A stretch of 64,000 nucleotides of DNA, taken from NCBI RefSeq assembly GCF_021491355.1, contig NZ_JAKENF010000002.1, forward strand, positions 558,001 to 622,000, given 5' to 3'. The translations under genes and the position numbers were made by a program. Numbering within the stretch: position 1 is the stretch's first letter; each line of letters starts with the position of its first letter. Origin of the DNA: Alitabrizicola rongguiensis (lineage in GTDB: Bacteria; Pseudomonadota; Alphaproteobacteria; Rhodobacterales; Rhodobacteraceae). Below, piece by piece: positions 17,434 to 24,492 of the stretch. The notes under the pieces were generated by a model that saw only the letters and a list, made by a program, of their open reading frames with translations, was not told the origin of the DNA and ran no database searches.

Positions 17434-17517
17434 GCCCGCGTGGTGGAATGGTAGACACAGGGGACTTAAAATCCCTAGCCGCAAGGCGTGCCGGTTCAAG
17501 TCCGGCCGCGGGCACCA
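17434..17517 (+). tRNA. tRNA-Leu (UAA)
   Basis: An 84-base class II tRNA. The acceptor stem is GCCCGCG / CGCGGGC, the D region GTGGAATGGTAGACAC, the anticodon loop CTTAAAA with anticodon TAA, then a long variable arm (AGCCGCAAGGCGT) and the T arm CCGGTTCAAGTCCGG. The CCA end is encoded. The long variable arm and TAA anticodon define tRNA-Leu reading UUA/UUG. Confidence 0.96.
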
Positions 17518-17662: not shown

Positions 17663-18622
17663 TTATCCTCTTCCTCTTTCGTAACTTGTGGCGAAGGTTC
17701 CGGTGACACTGGTGATCATGCCCCCCTTGGAGCGGCGCAGAAAAAGCGCGCTGATTGCATGATCCGTCGCAAAATCCAGCCCCTGACTGTCACCCATGAC
17801 CATAAGGGCTGTCGCCATCGCGTCTGCCAACATGCAGTGCTGCGACATCACGGTGACCGAGGCCGGGGCCGCGACCAAAGGGGCGCCACGGCGCGGGTCC
17901 ATCGTGTGGGAAAGGCGCGTTGTTCCCACCGAAACATAGTGGCGATAGTCCCCTGACGTGGCCACGGCCATATCCTCAAGCGCCAGAATGGAATGCGGAG
18001 CCGTCGCTTGGTCGTCCGGCGTCTCCACCCCGACCGCCCAGGGCCGCCCGGTACGCCGGAGACCCGTGGCCCGCACTTCGCCATCGATGCTGCAAAGAGT
18101 CGACGTATAGCCAAGAGCCGTCGCGGTTTCAGTAAGGCGGTCGACGCCATAGCCCTTGGCGATGCCCGACAGATCCAGCGCCAAAGCGGCCGATTTGCGG
18201 GCGCGCCTGTTGGCGATGTCCAGCTCCAACGCTTCGGTTGCCGGAACACGCGGTGTGGCACTTGCCGCCCGGATTGCGCCAAGGTCGATTCTGTCAGGCC
18301 CGAAGCCCCAGGCTCGGACAGCGTCGACAATGTTCATCTCGAAGGCCCCGCCTGTCTGGCGGCTGACGGCAAGGCCCGCCGACAGCACGGTCAGCAGTTC
18401 CTGTGGCAAAGGGACCCAGCTATCCAGCTGGGCAGCATTCAGGCGCATAAGATCGCTATCCGGTTTCCAGGTCGACATCTGGGCGTCAACCTCGTCGACC
18501 GCAGCCTGAAGATGGGCCCCCAGGTCAATATCAACGGCCCCTTCGTCGATCAGAACCGACCACCGTGTGCCCATTGTCGGGCCGCCAAATACAATTGCGT
18601 CATCAGTAGATGTCTTCGGCAT
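17663..18622 (-). CDS. apbE: FAD:protein FMN transferase (ApbE)
   Basis: A 319-residue ApbE-family enzyme, which attaches FMN from FAD to a Ser/Thr of exported target proteins using Mg2+. Visible are GGPTMGTRWSVLI at the N-terminus, LDLSGIAKGYGVDRL in the middle, and the metal-site region near the C-terminus (THTMDPRRGAPL-like SHTMDPRRG, then LADAMATALMVMG). No clear signal peptide is seen. It overlaps the upstream reductase gene by 20 bases, and a DUF2271 protein with a flavinylation motif is encoded two genes upstream, its likely target. Confidence 0.9.
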   Translation of the reverse strand: MPKTSTDDAIVFGGPTMGTRWSVLIDEGAVDIDLGAHLQAAVDEVDAQMSTWKPDSDLMRLNAAQLDSWVPLPQELLTVLSAGLAVSRQTGGAFEMNIVDAVRAWGFGPDRIDLGAIRAASATPRVPATEALELDIANRRARKSAALALDLSGIAKGYGVDRLTETATALGYTSTLCSIDGEVRATGLRRTGRPWAVGVETPDDQATAPHSILALEDMAVATSGDYRHYVSVGTTRLSHTMDPRRGAPLVAAPASVTVMSQHCMLADAMATALMVMGDSQGLDFATDHAISALFLRRSKGGMITSVTGTFATSYERGRG

Positions 18623-20810
18623 ATCGACCTCCGGCCTGCAAGGTCACGGGCGACAGTCCGAGCGGATGCAGGATCTCTGTCATCGCCTCGCGCACCCCCT
18701 GAGCCATCTCGCGGCCGCCGCAGACCATGACCCGCGCGCCTTCAGCGATCATGCGGCGGATCGCCTCGGCATCCTCGCGCAAGGCGTCCTGCACATAGTG
18801 CCGCTTCCCCATGCGGGAAAATGCGGTGCGGAGGCCGGTTAGGCGCCTATCGCGCTGCCAGTTGGCCAAATCATCGGCGTAAAGAAAGTCCGCCTGCGGA
18901 TGCCGCGCGCCGAACCACAGGTGCATCGGCCGATGCTTCCAGTTGGCGCGCAAGAACCCTGCCAGCGGCCCGATCCCCGTTCCCGCGCCAATCAGGATCA
19001 AGGGTGCTTGCGACCGGTCCGGCTGGAACCCAGGGTTCGGTCGTAGGAAAGCCTGCACCGCGTCTCCCGGCTGCAGAGCCAGAAGCTGACCCGAGCACAG
19101 GCCGCCCACATGCTTTCGCACGACGATCTCTACGAAGCCGTCCGCCTGGCTTGAGGCCAACGAATAGAACCGGGGCACCGTGTCGCCCTGTGGCACGACG
19201 CCAAGAAGGTCGCCCGCCCGAAACCGCCCGAAACCACGCCCGGTCAGCCGCTGCCAGAGGCCCCCCTTCGGCACTGCAAAGCGCAGGATTGCGGTAGGGG
19301 CCTGGACGCTATCTCCATAGTCCTTACGGGACATCAGGCGTAGCGCGGTGCTTTGTGGCGGCAGGGGTTGGTGGGTGATATCCAGGGAAAAGCCAATCCA
19401 CTCGCCAAAGGCGCGGGACCAGCGGGCAAAGGCTTGCGGCGATTGCCGGTCGATCCGGTCCAGCGGCATCTGCATAGCCCAGCCTGCGGCTTTCGCAGCA
19501 GCCTGCACCGCCTCGGCATAGGCACAGAAGCCGGGGAAGCTGCGGTCGCCGAAGCCCAACACCACCAGCGGCACTCCAGACAGGGGCGCGGCTGTCGCCA
19601 GACGGTCGAGCGCGCCTTTGGCCGAGGTCGGCGCATCGCCGTCGCCCCATGTTGCGGTCATGACGACAATTCGTTTGGCGTGCTTGTAGGTCCGCGGCGC
19701 GAAGGCAGAGAGGGCGGCCACATGAACGGCCTGTCCATGGGCCTGCAATGCGCAGGCCAAGGCAGTGGCAAAGCCCCAGGTGCTCCCGCCCTCGCTGCCC
19801 ACAAGGATCACCGTCTCCGCCACCGGCGCTGCGACCATCCCTGCCAGACGGGGACGGCTTTGGCGATTGCGCCACCAGATCAGCCCACCCGTCACCGACA
19901 GAACCGGGACCGTCAGCGCCGCAAGACCAAGAAGCAGCCCCCATAGCGCCGCGCCATCGCCGGTATGGATGACGTAGATCCATTCTCCCACCACGGTCCA
20001 CGGCCCCGGAGCTTGCCAGGCGAGCATCTCCCCGGTGCCCTGATCGATGTATCCGGTCCCCGAGCCAGTGCTCAGCGTGAACACATCCGTCGTGTCGCCA
20101 GGATAGGGAAAGGTCAGGTCCCGGAGGTCGGCAACGAGGACCTTTTGCAAAGCTGGCATCGCGTTGGGCGCCAGTCCCGTGACGCCGCTGACCGCATGGG
20201 GCATGACGGGGTTCGCTTCATCCGCTGGCAAAAGGTCAAAGGTCGCCGCCGTCATCCACAATGCCGTCAGCGCGGAAAGTCCAAGACCAAACACCGCGAC
20301 CCGCGCCAGTTCCGCATGCCAGCGCCCCGACCATGGCCCCTTGACCGCCGCGAACCAGCGCCCCCAGCCGCCTTGTCGCCGGGCCACCAGCATGGCGCCC
20401 GAGGCGGCCAGCATCAGCATTGCCAATGCTCCCACCGCCGACCCGAAGCGCCCCGGGTCGCCGAAGAGAAGGGATCGGTGGAAATCCGTCAGCCAGCGCC
20501 GCAGTGCGCCTTGGTCGGCACTGGCCACATCCAGCCCCGTGGCCGGATCGACAACCGCCGCCCCGGCCAAATCTCCGTCGAACCAGTAGGCAGTGATTGT
20601 GCCAGATGGCGAGCGTCGGATCTGCTCCACCTGCGGATGCACCGCCAGCACCTTCGTCGCCAGATCGCCCACAGTTTGCCCACTGACCTCGGATGGAGAG
20701 GACAGCCGCTCCAACGCAGGGAACAGCGACAGCGCCGCCCCGCTCAGCGCGAGGGCTAAGATCAAGACAGCGGCCAGAAGGCCGGGCCAGCGGTGGATTT
20801 GGCGAAGCAT
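18603..20810 (-). CDS. PepSY-TM / flavodoxin / FAD-NADPH reductase fusion (membrane electron-transfer protein)
   Basis: A 735-residue fusion. Residues 1-318 are a PepSY-associated transmembrane region with about four helices and histidines at 6, 111, 165 and 282 that could bind heme. From about 332 to 475 lies a flavodoxin-like FMN domain (ETVILVGSEGGSTWGFA...). The last ~230 residues are a ferredoxin-NADP reductase module with RFYSLASS (FAD), GGLCSG, GAGTGIGPLAGFLR (NADPH) and a terminal RYAEDIY like sulfite reductase flavoprotein. It should carry electrons from cytosolic NADPH across the inner membrane. It follows the DUF2271 gene by 11 bases. Confidence 0.88.
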   Translation of the reverse strand: MLRQIHRWPGLLAAVLILALALSGAALSLFPALERLSSPSEVSGQTVGDLATKVLAVHPQVEQIRRSPSGTITAYWFDGDLAGAAVVDPATGLDVASADQGALRRWLTDFHRSLLFGDPGRFGSAVGALAMLMLAASGAMLVARRQGGWGRWFAAVKGPWSGRWHAELARVAVFGLGLSALTALWMTAATFDLLPADEANPVMPHAVSGVTGLAPNAMPALQKVLVADLRDLTFPYPGDTTDVFTLSTGSGTGYIDQGTGEMLAWQAPGPWTVVGEWIYVIHTGDGAALWGLLLGLAALTVPVLSVTGGLIWWRNRQSRPRLAGMVAAPVAETVILVGSEGGSTWGFATALACALQAHGQAVHVAALSAFAPRTYKHAKRIVVMTATWGDGDAPTSAKGALDRLATAAPLSGVPLVVLGFGDRSFPGFCAYAEAVQAAAKAAGWAMQMPLDRIDRQSPQAFARWSRAFGEWIGFSLDITHQPLPPQSTALRLMSRKDYGDSVQAPTAILRFAVPKGGLWQRLTGRGFGRFRAGDLLGVVPQGDTVPRFYSLASSQADGFVEIVVRKHVGGLCSGQLLALQPGDAVQAFLRPNPGFQPDRSQAPLILIGAGTGIGPLAGFLRANWKHRPMHLWFGARHPQADFLYADDLANWQRDRRLTGLRTAFSRMGKRHYVQDALREDAEAIRRMIAEGARVMVCGGREMAQGVREAMTEILHPLGLSPVTLQAGGRYAEDIY

Positions 20811-20821
20811 GGGGAGTCCGA

Positions 20822-21292
20822 TCAGAAGCCGTAAGTGAAATCGGCGATGTAGCGGCGGCCCGACACGGGCGTCCCGGCCCCGGCGGTGGTCAGGGGCACC
20901 GCAATCTCATTAGGGCTCTCGCGCATATCCTCGGCTGCGGCGTCGATGTGCAGGGTATAGCCCGCGTCGAAGAGGGCGTCGGCCAAGTCCATCGACAGCT
21001 CCAGTTTCTGGCCCGATCCGACGCTGGCACCGGTGATCCCGTCCACTTGCGCCGGGTCGCCACCGGTAAACTGCGCCCAATCGATCAGGTGCCGGTAATA
21101 CTTCGACTTTCCACCCGCCATCCAAAGGCTGCCCGCATAGGCCCCCGAGGCGTCGGTCACATAGATGGCAAGATAGGCTCCCCTCCCGCCGTAGTCGGCC
21201 ATGTTGGCGGTCAGGGTAACGGGACGCGCCATGGCAAGGCCGGGGGTGACAAGGGCGGTGGACAGGGCAAGGGCGGCGATCAGGGATTTCAT
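20822..21292 (-). CDS. periplasmic DUF2271 protein, likely flavinylated electron carrier
   Basis: A 156-residue protein with a signal peptide ending near LAMARP, then a DUF2271 beta-rich domain (VTLTANMADYGGRGAYLAIYVTD, GSLWMAGGKSKYYRHL, DWAQFTGGD). It contains DGITGAS at residues 84-90, matching the ApbE target pattern D-G-x-[S/T]-G-A-[S/T]; Ser90 would carry FMN. ATG at 21292 is chosen because of the CGGAG eight bases upstream; a GTG at 21301 is possible. DUF2271 proteins are known companions of ApbE and PepSY reductases, so it probably accepts electrons from the fused reductase. Confidence 0.85.
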   Translation of the reverse strand: MKSLIAALALSTALVTPGLAMARPVTLTANMADYGGRGAYLAIYVTDASGAYAGSLWMAGGKSKYYRHLIDWAQFTGGDPAQVDGITGASVGSGQKLELSMDLADALFDAGYTLHIDAAAEDMRESPNEIAVPLTTAGAGTPVSGRRYIADFTYGF

Positions 21293-21317
21293 CCTGGACA
21301 CTCCGGAAGGGAAAGGA

Positions 21318-21650
21318 TCAGTTCGATTTCACGACCGGCGCGGTGCCGTTTGTGAAAAGCCCGTTCTTCGGTGGCGCTACGGTGCCCGCCTTTGCCGCGT
21401 CGCCGGCAGTCCCTGCGGCACAGCTCTCCTCGTCGTCATCGCCGCAGTCGTCGTCATCGTCCGAACTCGACCAAAGCGAGCCGCCGTCCTCATCCTCGTC
21501 ATCGTCGATGAGGGTCAGCTGCGGGTCCGGCAGGACGCGGTGTGAAAGGCCGGCACCCGGCGTCAGGGACAGGCCCTGGCCGCCGGCAAGTGCCGCCGAA
21601 CCAGCGCCAAGCGCCGTGGTCATCATCAGAAGGACAAAGGCAAACTTCAT
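21318..21650 (-). CDS. secreted Asp/Glu-rich small protein of unknown function
   Basis: A 110-residue protein with a clear signal peptide (MKFAFVLLMMTTALGAGSAALA). The mature part contains IDDDEDEDGG and DDDDDCGDDDEESC, with two cysteines framing an acidic run, then a Gly/Ala/Pro-rich tail. AAGGAG seven bases before the ATG is a strong ribosome site. I recognise no family. The acidic, Cys-framed stretch would bind divalent cations, which suits its place between a PepSY gene and a DUF2271 gene, but this role is inference. Confidence 0.75.
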   Translation of the reverse strand: MKFAFVLLMMTTALGAGSAALAGGQGLSLTPGAGLSHRVLPDPQLTLIDDDEDEDGGSLWSSSDDDDDCGDDDEESCAAGTAGDAAKAGTVAPPKNGLFTNGTAPVVKSN

Positions 21651-21699
21651 TTCTCATCTCCTTGGAGGTCCGGATTGCGCACCTGCGTCGTCGTCCGGG

Positions 21700-22017
21700 T
21701 CAATCGTCATGGGTATCGTCTTCGGGTTCACGGCCCTCGCCGTGGTCGTCCCCGAATTCCATCTCGACCACCGCCAGCGTTGCGGGGTTGAGCTTGACTT
21801 CGATCGCGCGGCCCTCGGCATCGCGACCGATCAACTCGTAGCAACCATCGTCGATCCGGATCCTGCGCAGGGCCCAGCCCTGGTCGGCTGCAAGTTTCAC
21901 GACCGCCTCGCGCGGCTGCCAGTCGGTCATCGGCACGGCGCAGTCGTCGTCACCCGCCAGCGCCGGGGTGGCGATCAGCACCAAGGTCAGCGCCAGCATT
22001 GTTGTTGTCCGGTTCAT
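21700..22017 (-). CDS. periplasmic PepSY-domain protein
   Basis: A 105-residue exported protein: signal peptide to about residue 22 (ALAGD), then a single PepSY fold (WQPREAVVKLAADQGWALRRIRIDDGCYELIGRDAEGRAIEVKLNPATLAVVEME) and an acidic, His-containing tail. The ATG at 22017 is an internal start in a longer open frame, chosen because it begins the signal peptide. It is the first gene of the minus-strand operon and is divergent from a response regulator; PepSY proteins beside QseB/BqsR-type regulators are a known pattern. Confidence 0.85.
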   Translation of the reverse strand: MNRTTTMLALTLVLIATPALAGDDDCAVPMTDWQPREAVVKLAADQGWALRRIRIDDGCYELIGRDAEGRAIEVKLNPATLAVVEMEFGDDHGEGREPEDDTHDD

Positions 22018-22062
22018 GGGCGACACTCCGCTTCGGGTCCTGCGGGCCTTTTGGCGCGCGAA

Positions 22063-22078
22063 ACTGACGCCAGCCTGA
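22063..22078 (-). promoter_or_regulatory. response-regulator box facing the PepSY operon
   Basis: On the minus strand this reads TCAGG-CTGGCG-TCAGT, two TCAG units repeated with an 11-base period, the spacing typical of OmpR/PhoB-family tandem sites. It points toward the PepSY gene starting at 22017. Confidence 0.5.
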
Positions 22079-22097
22079 AGGAGCGCGACAAACTGCT

Positions 22098-22113
22098 TCA
22101 GGTGGCCGTCAGG
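22098..22113 (+). promoter_or_regulatory. response-regulator box facing the regulator-kinase operon
   Basis: TCAGG-TGGCCG-TCAGG is a perfect pentamer direct repeat with an 11-base period; the following TTGCC makes the two units alike over nine of ten bases. It mirrors the box at 22063-22078, so the two form a 14/17-match inverted repeat (22064-22080 and 22096-22112). The arrangement is analogous to the TTAAG-N6-TTAAG box of BqsR. Autoregulation is inferred. Confidence 0.55.
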
Positions 22114-22151
22114 TTGCCACGCTATGCGGGGAACCGAAGGAGACAGGCCGG

Positions 22152-22811
22152 ATGCGTATCTTGCTGATCGAGGATGATCGCGTGATCGCCACCGCCCTGC
22201 GCGAGCAGGCGGAAGGCGAAGGGCATTCCGTCGATTGGGCCGCGCGGCTGGACGAGGCGTCCGATGCGCTGGCGACGGCCAGTTTCGACCTGATCCTTCT
22301 GGACCTAATGCTTCCCGATGGTCGCGGCCTGCCATTCCTGCGCGCCCTGCGGGCCAAGGGCAGCCAGACTCCGGTCATCATCATGACGGCGCTCGATCAG
22401 GTGTCCGACCGGATCGAAGGGCTGAACGCCGGGGCGGATGACTATCTGGTCAAGCCCTTCGATCTTTCGGAACTCTCGGCTCGCATCGGCGCCGTCGCCC
22501 GGCGCTATTCCGGCAACCCCAATCCCCTGATTTCACTGGGCGAGCTGTCCATCGACATTGCCGAACGCCGGGTCAGAAAGTCCGGTCGCCCCATTCCCCT
22601 GACCGCCCGCGAATGGGTATTGCTCGAGGCGTTCCTGCAAAAGCCGGGCCAGCTTCTGTCCAAGCCGCAGCTTGAGGAACGGCTCTATTCCTTCGATGCC
22701 GAGGTCGAAAGCAACACGATCGAGGTGCATGTCAGCCGCCTCCGCAAGAAATTGGGGGCGGGTGTCATCGTCACCGAACGCGGGCTTGGCTACCGTCTGG
22801 GTCCGGCATGA
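22152..22811 (+). CDS. OmpR-family two-component response regulator (QseB/BqsR-like)
   Basis: A 219-residue regulator with a receiver domain (phospho-acceptor Asp51 in LILLDLMLPDG, Lys101 in YLVKPFD) and a winged-helix DNA-binding domain (residues ~125-219, VESNTIEVHVSRLRKKLGAGVIVTERGLGYRL). It overlaps the kinase start by four bases (ATGA). The tandem TCAGG boxes upstream are probably its own targets, in both directions. Confidence 0.92.
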   Translation: MRILLIEDDRVIATALREQAEGEGHSVDWAARLDEASDALATASFDLILLDLMLPDGRGLPFLRALRAKGSQTPVIIMTALDQVSDRIEGLNAGADDYLVKPFDLSELSARIGAVARRYSGNPNPLISLGELSIDIAERRVRKSGRPIPLTAREWVLLEAFLQKPGQLLSKPQLEERLYSFDAEVESNTIEVHVSRLRKKLGAGVIVTERGLGYRLGPA

Positions 22812-24148
22812 CCCGTGCCTCGATCCGCCTGCGCTCGGCCGCCGCGCTGTCGCTGATCGTCACTCTGATCTGGCTAGGCACCGCTCTGGTCACGACGCGG
22901 CTTCTGACCTCGGAACTGAATGATGTCTTTGATTCAGCCTTGCAGGAAACCGGCCAGCGTATCCTGCAACTGGCCGTGGTCGACGTGCTGGGGCGGGAAG
23001 AGGAAGGTGTCGCTCAGCGCGTCATGGCGCTGGACGACCATGAGGAATACTACACTTACATCGTCCGCGATGACCGGGGTCGCATCCTTCTGACCTCGCA
23101 CCGCGCCGATCCCGCGCGTTTTCCGGCCTTCACCGAAACCGGCTTTCATCAGACATCAGAGCTGCGCTTCTATCATGAATCTGCCGTGCGCGGCACCATC
23201 TCGCTGACCATCGCCGAGCCCCTGTCGCACCGGCGCGAGGTGGCGCGCGAAATGGCACTTTCCCTGGCCCTGCCCCTAGTCGTGATGATTCCCCTCAGCA
23301 TTGCCGGCATCTTCTATGGGCTCGGCTATGGCCTGCGCCCCCTCGGCAAGTTGCGCGCACAGTTGGCGCGGCGCGGGGTGAAGGACATGTCGCCCCTGCC
23401 GACAAAGGACATGGTCACCGAACTTCGCCCGATTGGCGATGCGCTGAACCAGCTTCTCGCCCGGCTGGACACCGCCTTTGCCGCCGAACGTAGCTTTACC
23501 GCCAATGCAGCGCATGAGTTGCGCACGCCTCTGGCAGGGGCGCTCGCCCAGGTGCAGCGCCTGCGTCAGACCGCGACCGATCCCGACATCGCGAGGCGCG
23601 CGGGCGATGTCGAGGCGACGCTGAAGCGCCTGACCCGCCTGTCCGAACGCCTGATGCAGCTGGCCCGGGCCGAGGGCGCACGGCTGCTGACCGACACCGC
23701 CCAGGATCTGCGGCCCATCCTGCGGATTGTCGCTGGCGACTTTGCCCAAGGCCCCGACGCCGGGCGCGTGACCCTCTCGCTGCCCGATGCACCCGTCCGC
23801 TCAGACATAGATCCTGATGCCGTGGCGATCCTGGCCCGCAACCTGATCGAGAACGCCGTGCGGCACGGAGTTAGTCCCGTCACTGTCACCCTGGACCCGC
23901 AGGGTACGCTTTCAGTCGAAAATGACTGCCCACCGATTCCACCCGCCGAGCTTGCCGCCCTCTCTGGCCGCTTTGTGCGGGGCAAGGACGCTGGCGAAGG
24001 TAGCGGCCTTGGCCTTGCGATTGTCCACACCATTGCCGAACGGATCGGCTCGCCCCTTCGCTTGACCTCGCCGCTGCCCGGTAAAACCACCGGCTTTTCC
24101 GCGCGCGTCAACCTGCACGGCACGACATATCAGGACCAATCCAGATGA
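22808..24148 (+). CDS. sensor histidine kinase (QseC/BqsS-like)
   Basis: A 446-residue membrane kinase: TM1 about residues 10-30, periplasmic sensor 31-149, TM2 150-172, then HAMP-like region, H-box AAHELRTPLAG with His236, N-box ARNLIENAVRHG, and G-boxes GSGLGLAIVHTI. The periplasmic loop has acidic patches GREEEG (62-67) and DDHEEYY (76-82), possible metal ligands. The BqsS-type RExxE motif is not exactly present. Its partner is the upstream regulator. The stop overlaps the next gene (ATGA). Confidence 0.9.
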   Translation: MTRASIRLRSAAALSLIVTLIWLGTALVTTRLLTSELNDVFDSALQETGQRILQLAVVDVLGREEEGVAQRVMALDDHEEYYTYIVRDDRGRILLTSHRADPARFPAFTETGFHQTSELRFYHESAVRGTISLTIAEPLSHRREVAREMALSLALPLVVMIPLSIAGIFYGLGYGLRPLGKLRAQLARRGVKDMSPLPTKDMVTELRPIGDALNQLLARLDTAFAAERSFTANAAHELRTPLAGALAQVQRLRQTATDPDIARRAGDVEATLKRLTRLSERLMQLARAEGARLLTDTAQDLRPILRIVAGDFAQGPDAGRVTLSLPDAPVRSDIDPDAVAILARNLIENAVRHGVSPVTVTLDPQGTLSVENDCPPIPPAELAALSGRFVRGKDAGEGSGLGLAIVHTIAERIGSPLRLTSPLPGKTTGFSARVNLHGTTYQDQSR

Positions 24149-24492
24149 CCCTTGCCTACAAATCCGCCCATGCCGAACTCCATCACCTAGACCGCGCAGG
24201 CTGGCTGCGGACTGCCGTTCTGGGCGCCAATGACGGGATCGTCTCGGTCTCCTCGCTGATCGTCGGTGCCGCCGCCGCCGTGCCCCTTGCCGCAGCACTG
24301 CTGGCCCGCGCGACGCAGATCATCCCGGCCGTCGTCATCACCACGCTGTCCAGCCTCGCCGCCCTTCGGGCCACCGTCGCCGCGGCCGGCGGCGCGCCCA
24401 AGCTCTCGGCCACTGCCCGCGTCCTTTTCTGGGGCGCGGCCGCCATCGCAATCATCTCGGGAGTCGGCTGGGTCTTCGGCGTAAGCGTCTGA
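24145..24492 (+). CDS. half-length VIT1/CCC1-like membrane protein
   Basis: A 115-residue protein. The start HAELHHLDRAGWLRTAVLGANDGIVSVSSLIVGAAAA is the classic VIT/CCC1 N-terminus and first helix, and the end GVGWVFGVSV is the classic C-terminus. Full VIT proteins are ~230 residues with five helices and a cytosolic metal-binding domain; here the middle ~120 residues are missing without loss of frame. The family exports Fe2+/Mn2+ from the cytoplasm. It may be a reduced, still made version (ATGA overlap with the kinase gene) or a decayed one. Confidence 0.75.
   Translation: MTLAYKSAHAELHHLDRAGWLRTAVLGANDGIVSVSSLIVGAAAAVPLAAALLARATQIIPAVVITTLSSLAALRATVAAAGGAPKLSATARVLFWGAAAIAIISGVGWVFGVSV

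Follow-up and report, generated by a model that had tools for sequence, protein, structure and literature searches.

In the PepSY-like flavinylation systems described by Méheust et al. in 2021 (PMC8238504), an ApbE occurs together with a DUF2271 protein carrying the target motif [S/T]GA[S/T] and a PepSY_TM protein with a part that binds nicotinamide adenine dinucleotide (NAD), and VIT1 is also present in some of the clusters. Clusters of this PepSY-like/DUF2271 kind have been tied to iron (PMC8238504, PMC11870441, PMC7190382), a link for which PMC11334425 is also cited, and when DUF2271 and ApbE of a different species were both expressed in E. coli as leaderless versions, DUF2271 became flavinylated (PMC8238504). 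Here we analyze a locus whose core belongs to this known type of system, located in a window of 64,000 nucleotides (the whole stretch of DNA analyzed, G000:C6:558001-622000) from the 4.2 Mb genome of Alitabrizicola rongguiensis. A minus-strand operon encodes, in order, a PepSY_2 protein, an acidic protein, a DUF2271 protein, a PepSY_TM/flavodoxin/NADPH reductase fusion and an ApbE, while a response regulator, a histidine kinase and a VIT1 fragment lie divergently on the plus strand. With somewhat better than even confidence, we regard the locus as a self-contained module of the inner membrane and periplasm that uses NADPH to drive electron transfer, belongs to the PepSY-like flavinylation type and is most likely a metal (probably ferric) reductase.

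Families were assigned by a Pfam scan of ten window proteins, which confirmed the families proposed in the initial annotation of this DNA; its gene coordinates were also right. The features, in window positions, are the following (FAD, flavin adenine dinucleotide; FMN, flavin mononucleotide):

17663..18622, minus strand: ApbE (FAD:protein FMN transferase), leaderless (PF02424, 241.7 bits)
18603..20810, minus strand: PepSY_TM + Flavodoxin_1 + NAD_binding_1 protein, a membrane part fused to a diflavin reductase (Pfam)
20822..21301, minus strand: DUF2271 protein with an export leader, probable covalent FMN carrier (PF10029, 107.2 bits)
21318..21650, minus strand: Asp-rich exported protein with two Cys after the leader and the C-terminal tail PPxNGLFxxGxxPxVxxN (no Pfam match)
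21700..22017, minus strand: small exported PepSY_2 protein, likely ATG at 22017, possible kinase partner (PF13670, 92.9 bits)
22064..22112, no strand: predicted operator CTGACG-N5-CTGAAG-N15-CTTCAG-N5-CGTCAG, from conservation among intergenic stretches
22152..22811, plus strand: OmpR/PmrA-type response regulator (PF00072, PF00486)
22808..24148, plus strand: sensor histidine kinase with 2CSK_N, HisKA and HATPase_c (Pfam)
24145..24492, plus strand: VIT1-family fragment of 115 amino acids with an internal 360-bp in-frame deletion (PF01988 in two pieces)

Proposed electron-transfer core and its layout among relatives

PepSY_TM, ApbE and DUF2271 all score above their Pfam cut-offs within one operon, in agreement with a PepSY-like flavinylation system, which is defined by a PepSY_TM gene clustered with a flavinylation gene (ApbE, FMN-binding, DUF2271 or DUF3570), and the DUF2271 leader supplies the signal peptide on at least one target gene that served as a filter in PMC8238504. 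The ApbE target motif recognized earlier in DUF2271 proved to be strictly conserved, with T-G-A-S invariant in 47 of 47 aligned sequences; the acceptor given there as Ser90 is this serine counted from the ATG, and becomes residue 93 in the GTG-started open reading frame (ORF). Leaders were judged throughout by hydrophobicity rather than by a trained predictor, with 159 of 160 loci scored for DUF2271 and 150 of 160 for ApbE, and by this rule a hydrophobic leader precedes DUF2271 in 153 of the 159. An RR pair lies near the start in 20 of the 159 stretches, possibly including upstream untranslated codons, and none was seen in the leaders of every second row of the alignment. A sequence search for solved relatives of DUF2271 gave a best expectation value (E) of 0.035, and a fold search from a middling model (predicted local distance difference test, pLDDT, 72) gave no match at E 0.001 or less.

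In the PepSY_TM part of the fusion, H6, H111, H165 and H282 are invariant in 39 of 39 aligned sequences, and the reductase half resembles NOS, CYPOR and CysJ in both sequence and fold. FoxB was absent among the sequence matches of the N-terminal half, whose sole match was a haemoglobin (E 0.12), and also from the best 50 of 362 fold matches obtained with a model of the whole fusion (pLDDT 84; predicted template modelling score 0.50), these 50 being diflavin-reductase chains.

We infer from these proteins an electron path, together with its hemes, metal and inducer, in which cytosolic NADPH would reduce FAD and then FMN in the diflavin reductase half, electrons would pass to two hemes held by the four invariant histidines of the PepSY_TM half, and covalent FMN on DUF2271 would deliver them to a periplasmic acceptor. 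This FMN would probably be put on DUF2271 before export, by an ApbE predicted to be cytosolic. The Asp-rich tailed protein and PepSY_2 would probably serve as metal binders that present the metal or report on it, PepSY_2 perhaps being the periplasmic partner of the kinase, and the divergent regulator and kinase would switch mainly this locus through one operator of four half-sites. The initial annotation had likewise proposed flavinylation-based transmembrane electron transfer, a proposal that homology supports (the TGAS motif, the four histidines, the diflavin half and the co-occurrence of the genes); the novelty and the VIT role attached to it found no support.

The comparison included 93 + 80 loci, the latter being 80 of 110 relatives. 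The 172 matching loci were reduced to 160 distinct ones, window included, by identical DUF2271 DNA; L031 and L074 have no DUF2271 match, and the DUF2271 places in G089, G109 and G345 were left out. Loci with a DUF2271 identity of at least 63.5% and at least 4 kb of upstream sequence were taken as closer relatives (n = 93), those with less than 4 kb (14 closer, 9 distant) being set aside. DUF2271 was found in 85 of the 395 genomes searched from the same family. Among the closer relatives, 90 of 93 have the divergent regulator, 91 PepSY_2 and 81 the tailed protein; of the 87 with at least 3.5 kb downstream, all carry the PepSY_TM fusion and 86 have ApbE after it. Most closer relatives share this gene order, which is thus no chance association. 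In the 43 more distant loci with enough upstream sequence, the divergent regulator was found in 14, PepSY_2 in 31 and the tail in 4. Carriers include Rhodobacter, Gemmobacter, Pseudooceanicola, Mesorhizobium, Bosea and Methyloceanibacter, and the gene set is common in some water and soil bacteria. Looking for the same gene set in other genomes, as had been proposed, thus returned many, and with it the claim that the combination is new falls: the combination is the usual layout in Rhodobacteraceae and some Rhizobiales relatives.

The locus variants also bear on the metal. A cytochrome b561 gene (35 of 93 closer relatives) or a ferric-reductase-like gene (13 of 93) stands between PepSY_2 and DUF2271, and a VIT gene is found in 43 of 93 (14 on the side of the kinase, 29 on the strand of the operon); the window version has neither b561 nor the ferric-reductase gene. 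The occurrence of these three gene types fits iron. A metal other than iron (lanthanide, calcium, uranyl or copper), with the redox part serving that metal or another acceptor, would agree with the description of lanthanide-binding PepSY proteins such as LanP (PMC11845868) and with a PepSY_TM protein tied to copper (PMC13038864), and poly-Asp runs are not specific to iron. Considering that many versions of the locus carry ferric-reductase-like or VIT genes, and that PepSY-like/DUF2271 clusters have published ties to iron, we think a non-iron metal possible but rather unlikely.

A distant version of the cluster, at L027:293-3876 and L139:4757-7766, has small c-type cytochromes and a 499-amino-acid exported protein upstream of DUF2271; the latter was unmatched in a Pfam scan of L027, and L139 is similar by eye.

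The tailed acidic protein and the proposed two-component switch

A regular-expression search found the C-terminal tail in 107 loci, duplicates included, where it ends 83 acidic proteins and 24 PepSY_2 proteins. Its residues are highly conserved across the 107: the second P of PP in 106, N in 102, G in 102, L in 102, F in 101, G in 100, P in 105 and the final N in 95. The source genome has one strong match (E 1e-15), four others lying at E 0.19 or more. Of the 395 family genomes, 63 have tail matches and 62 of these also have DUF2271; 64 of the 68 matches lie within 2 kb of DUF2271, a link that is partly built in, since proteins encoded beside DUF2271 served to build the tail model. The tail is not attributable to one partner; the remaining four matches occur with two-component genes. 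These exceptions are G170, which has no DUF2271 match, G255, where DUF2271 is 29.5 kb away, G288, where 4.7 kb containing another large ORF separates the two, and G122, where tail and DUF2271 are on separate contigs. Across 190 genomes of the class, one further strong match adjoins a DUF2271 ORF, two of the four matches being weak (E 0.004 and 0.006), and a search of viral contigs for the tail was without result. The Asp runs and the common tail suggest that the acidic protein may bind metal and dock through its tail.

Three further loci are of note. The PepSY_2 protein at L121:6692-7186 carries the NGLF part of the tail three times in tandem at its end; at L236:6428-8442, a two-component locus has a tailed acidic protein and a small membrane protein, DUF4405-like by eye, with no DUF2271 nearby; and at L238:2727-4706, a 659-amino-acid ORF, P-type metal ATPase-like by eye, stands between DUF2271 and a tailed PepSY_2.

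The tailed acidic protein and PepSY_2 may alternatively act in signaling, tuning a kinase that senses cations or envelope stress. The four tail matches that have no DUF2271 inside 2 kb occur together with two-component genes, and in Vibrio the small PepSY protein DbfQ acts on its kinase, which was unresponsive to iron when tested (PMC12714742). However, 64 of the 68 matches do accompany DUF2271, and L075 and L089 keep both tail and DUF2271 with no regulator within 8 kb upstream, which leaves signaling a serious possibility that we nevertheless judge to fall short of probable.

The response regulator reaches its top NCBIfam score with PmrA (208.5 bits, under the cut-off of 330). Between its gene and that of PepSY_2 lies the predicted operator, which is kept with at most 4 mismatches of 24 in 111 of 120 distinct intergenic stretches (reduced from 129, window included), whereas none of 360 shuffles had fewer than 6 mismatches. 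The match in the window is exact, with none in 100 shuffles. A zero-mismatch scan of the genome, which did not cover weaker sites, found the exact half CTGAMG-N5-CTGAMG twice, both times here, against one match for a reversed control pattern. Given that the exact half is confined to this locus, the regulator probably acts mainly on this locus through 22064-22112, as predicted from sequence. In L130, L129 and L125, which are without tail and PepSY_2 matches, the operator upstream of the regulator has direct repeats of CTGAAG on either side where the others have CTGACG/CTGAAG.

The leaderless ApbE and the shortened VIT gene

The operon's ApbE is predicted to be cytosolic. In the window it comprises 319 amino acids in a 326-codon open frame, with about 7 codons from the first ATG back to the in-frame stop. 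None of the 150 distinct loci scored has a hydrophobic leader on this protein, and 136 of them have at most 35 codons before the PTMG motif; a looser leader rule flagged one ApbE, in L196, and none when limited to the last 45 residues. Since the enzyme would be cytosolic and its target exported, FMN attachment before export, or another route, would be needed. According to the review PMC12052999, cytosolic ApbEs exist and the Klebsiella one serves a cytosolic enzyme; the available text of PMC8238504 makes no comment on a leaderless ApbE with an exported target.

One such route would employ another, exported ApbE (for example NosX) to attach FMN in the periplasm, the leaderless ApbE having a different job. 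The source genome does encode a second ApbE with a twin-arginine leader (L002), in a nos-like neighbourhood whose genes we provisionally take to be nos genes. Nevertheless, the operon's ApbE is the sole one found in 13 of 58 genomes (drawn from 61 others with tail and DUF2271, leaving out G122, G248 and G255), both ApbE matches adjoin DUF2271 in three more (G153, G159 and G195), and 86 of the 87 closer relatives with enough downstream sequence encode the enzyme after the PepSY_TM fusion. We therefore hold the exported route to be unlikely. The source genome has one more ApbE match, the third, which is partial and sits close to a contig end (G000:C10:69821-70072).

Taken jointly, the features suggest, as a tentative reading that we would not yet call probable, that a leaderless cytosolic ApbE flavinylates DUF2271 before export, that the tail tags a new family of metal-binding partners, and that a single operator in the genome governs the switch. 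If true, the first of these would break the reported rule that ApbE modifies proteins of its own compartment. Several points weigh against our main reading of the locus as a metal-reducing module of the PepSY-like type. A cytosolically expressed ApbE failed to replace a periplasmic one in a thiamine-growth test (PMC12052999). FoxB, with which the four histidines would be compared, surfaced neither by sequence nor among the best 50 fold matches, and the scan of ten window proteins showed no DUF4198, a family frequent in published clusters. The tail model derives from DUF2271-neighbouring proteins, and the four remaining tail matches go with the two-component genes and not with DUF2271. That the regulator binds the operator is a prediction, with a genome scan that counts exact sites only, and the window kinase has no ExxE, an iron-sensing motif (PMC12666569), in its periplasmic part, where 19 of 28 aligned kinases have it somewhere.

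The VIT1 fragment had been put forward as a reduced VIT protein belonging to a distinctive system, which we reject. Its match to VIT1 scores 33.2 bits against a cut-off of 28.1, in two pieces that do not amount to a full-length domain. The close relatives L140 and L142 have a VIT gene of 235 codons at the same place, compared with 115 codons in the window, where 360 bp have been lost in frame at a GCC-rich stretch, and among 44 further VIT matches, each at a distinct locus, 43 span 200 or more of the 235 positions (L060 covers 155). A full-length VIT gene also lies about 109 kb before the window, with weaker matches on other contigs. For these reasons the gene looks like a lesion: it is probably an internally deleted copy, a remnant, although an assembly error is possible. 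The ratio of nonsynonymous to synonymous substitution rates (dN/dS) of the remnant against four relatives is 0.075-0.143, compared with 0.021-0.092 when five pairs of relatives are set against each other over those codons, a rough comparison with overlapping ranges and many dS values above 1. The in-frame deletion and the still low dN/dS could be taken to indicate that the 115-amino-acid product works as a mini-transporter; we find this very improbable, because about half of the protein is gone, no other of the 44 matches is shortened this way, the remnant's dN/dS averages higher than what relatives show among themselves over those codons (with the same overlap and roughness), and the genome holds a full-length copy.

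Just past the 3' end of the operon lies a tRNA-Leu (taa) gene, at 17434-17517.

Significance and comparison with known systems

Within the open-access literature searched, as far as its text was available, neither the tail nor the operator nor the pairing of a leaderless ApbE with an exported target turned up; nothing joined aspartate-rich, PepSY and periplasmic, and no PepSY paper was found on flavin reductase, Rhodobacteraceae and iron reduction. The locus offers a compact system, also present in named cultured strains, that would allow several questions to be addressed at once: the place at which ApbE modifies exported flavoproteins, what PepSY-like electrons reduce, and what small PepSY proteins signal to their kinases. 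With its single strong operator, one reporter should suffice to find the inducer, and the conserved tail offers itself as a candidate docking peptide.

Several known systems resemble parts of the locus. As in DbfQRS-like modules (PMC12714742), in which opposite strands are also known, a small PepSY gene adjoins the divergent two-component genes, inside the distance of four genes that defines such modules; here, however, that gene is the first of an operon for probable electron transfer. A regulator and kinase beside PepSY genes are likewise found in BqsRS of Pseudomonas aeruginosa (PMC12666569, PMC4682146), and the BqsR site TTAAG-N6-TTAAG (PMC4682146) shares the 11-bp direct-repeat period. 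In contrast, the half-site here is CTGA(A/C)G and the repeats form an inverted pair, the window kinase is without ExxE, and one exact site stands against hundreds of near-sites reported for that organism. The cytosolic ApbE of Klebsiella pneumoniae (PMC12052999) similarly has no signal peptide, but its target is a soluble cytosolic fumarate reductase, whereas the linked target here has an export leader. FoxB-type di-heme PepSY_TM reductases (PMC11334425, PMC13038864), in which conserved histidines stand on two sides of the membrane, also have a membrane part with four conserved histidines; in the present locus PepSY_TM is fused to a diflavin NADPH reductase, and no superposition was obtained.

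The closest likeness is to the PepSY-like flavinylation systems of PMC8238504, so that the type of system is already known. Compared with their description there, this locus lacks DUF4198 among the window proteins scanned, and has a leaderless ApbE, a tailed acidic protein, PepSY_2 and a dedicated two-component pair with one operator. What is new, in our view, is the leaderless ApbE with an exported target, the tailed acidic partner and what appears to be a near single-target switch.

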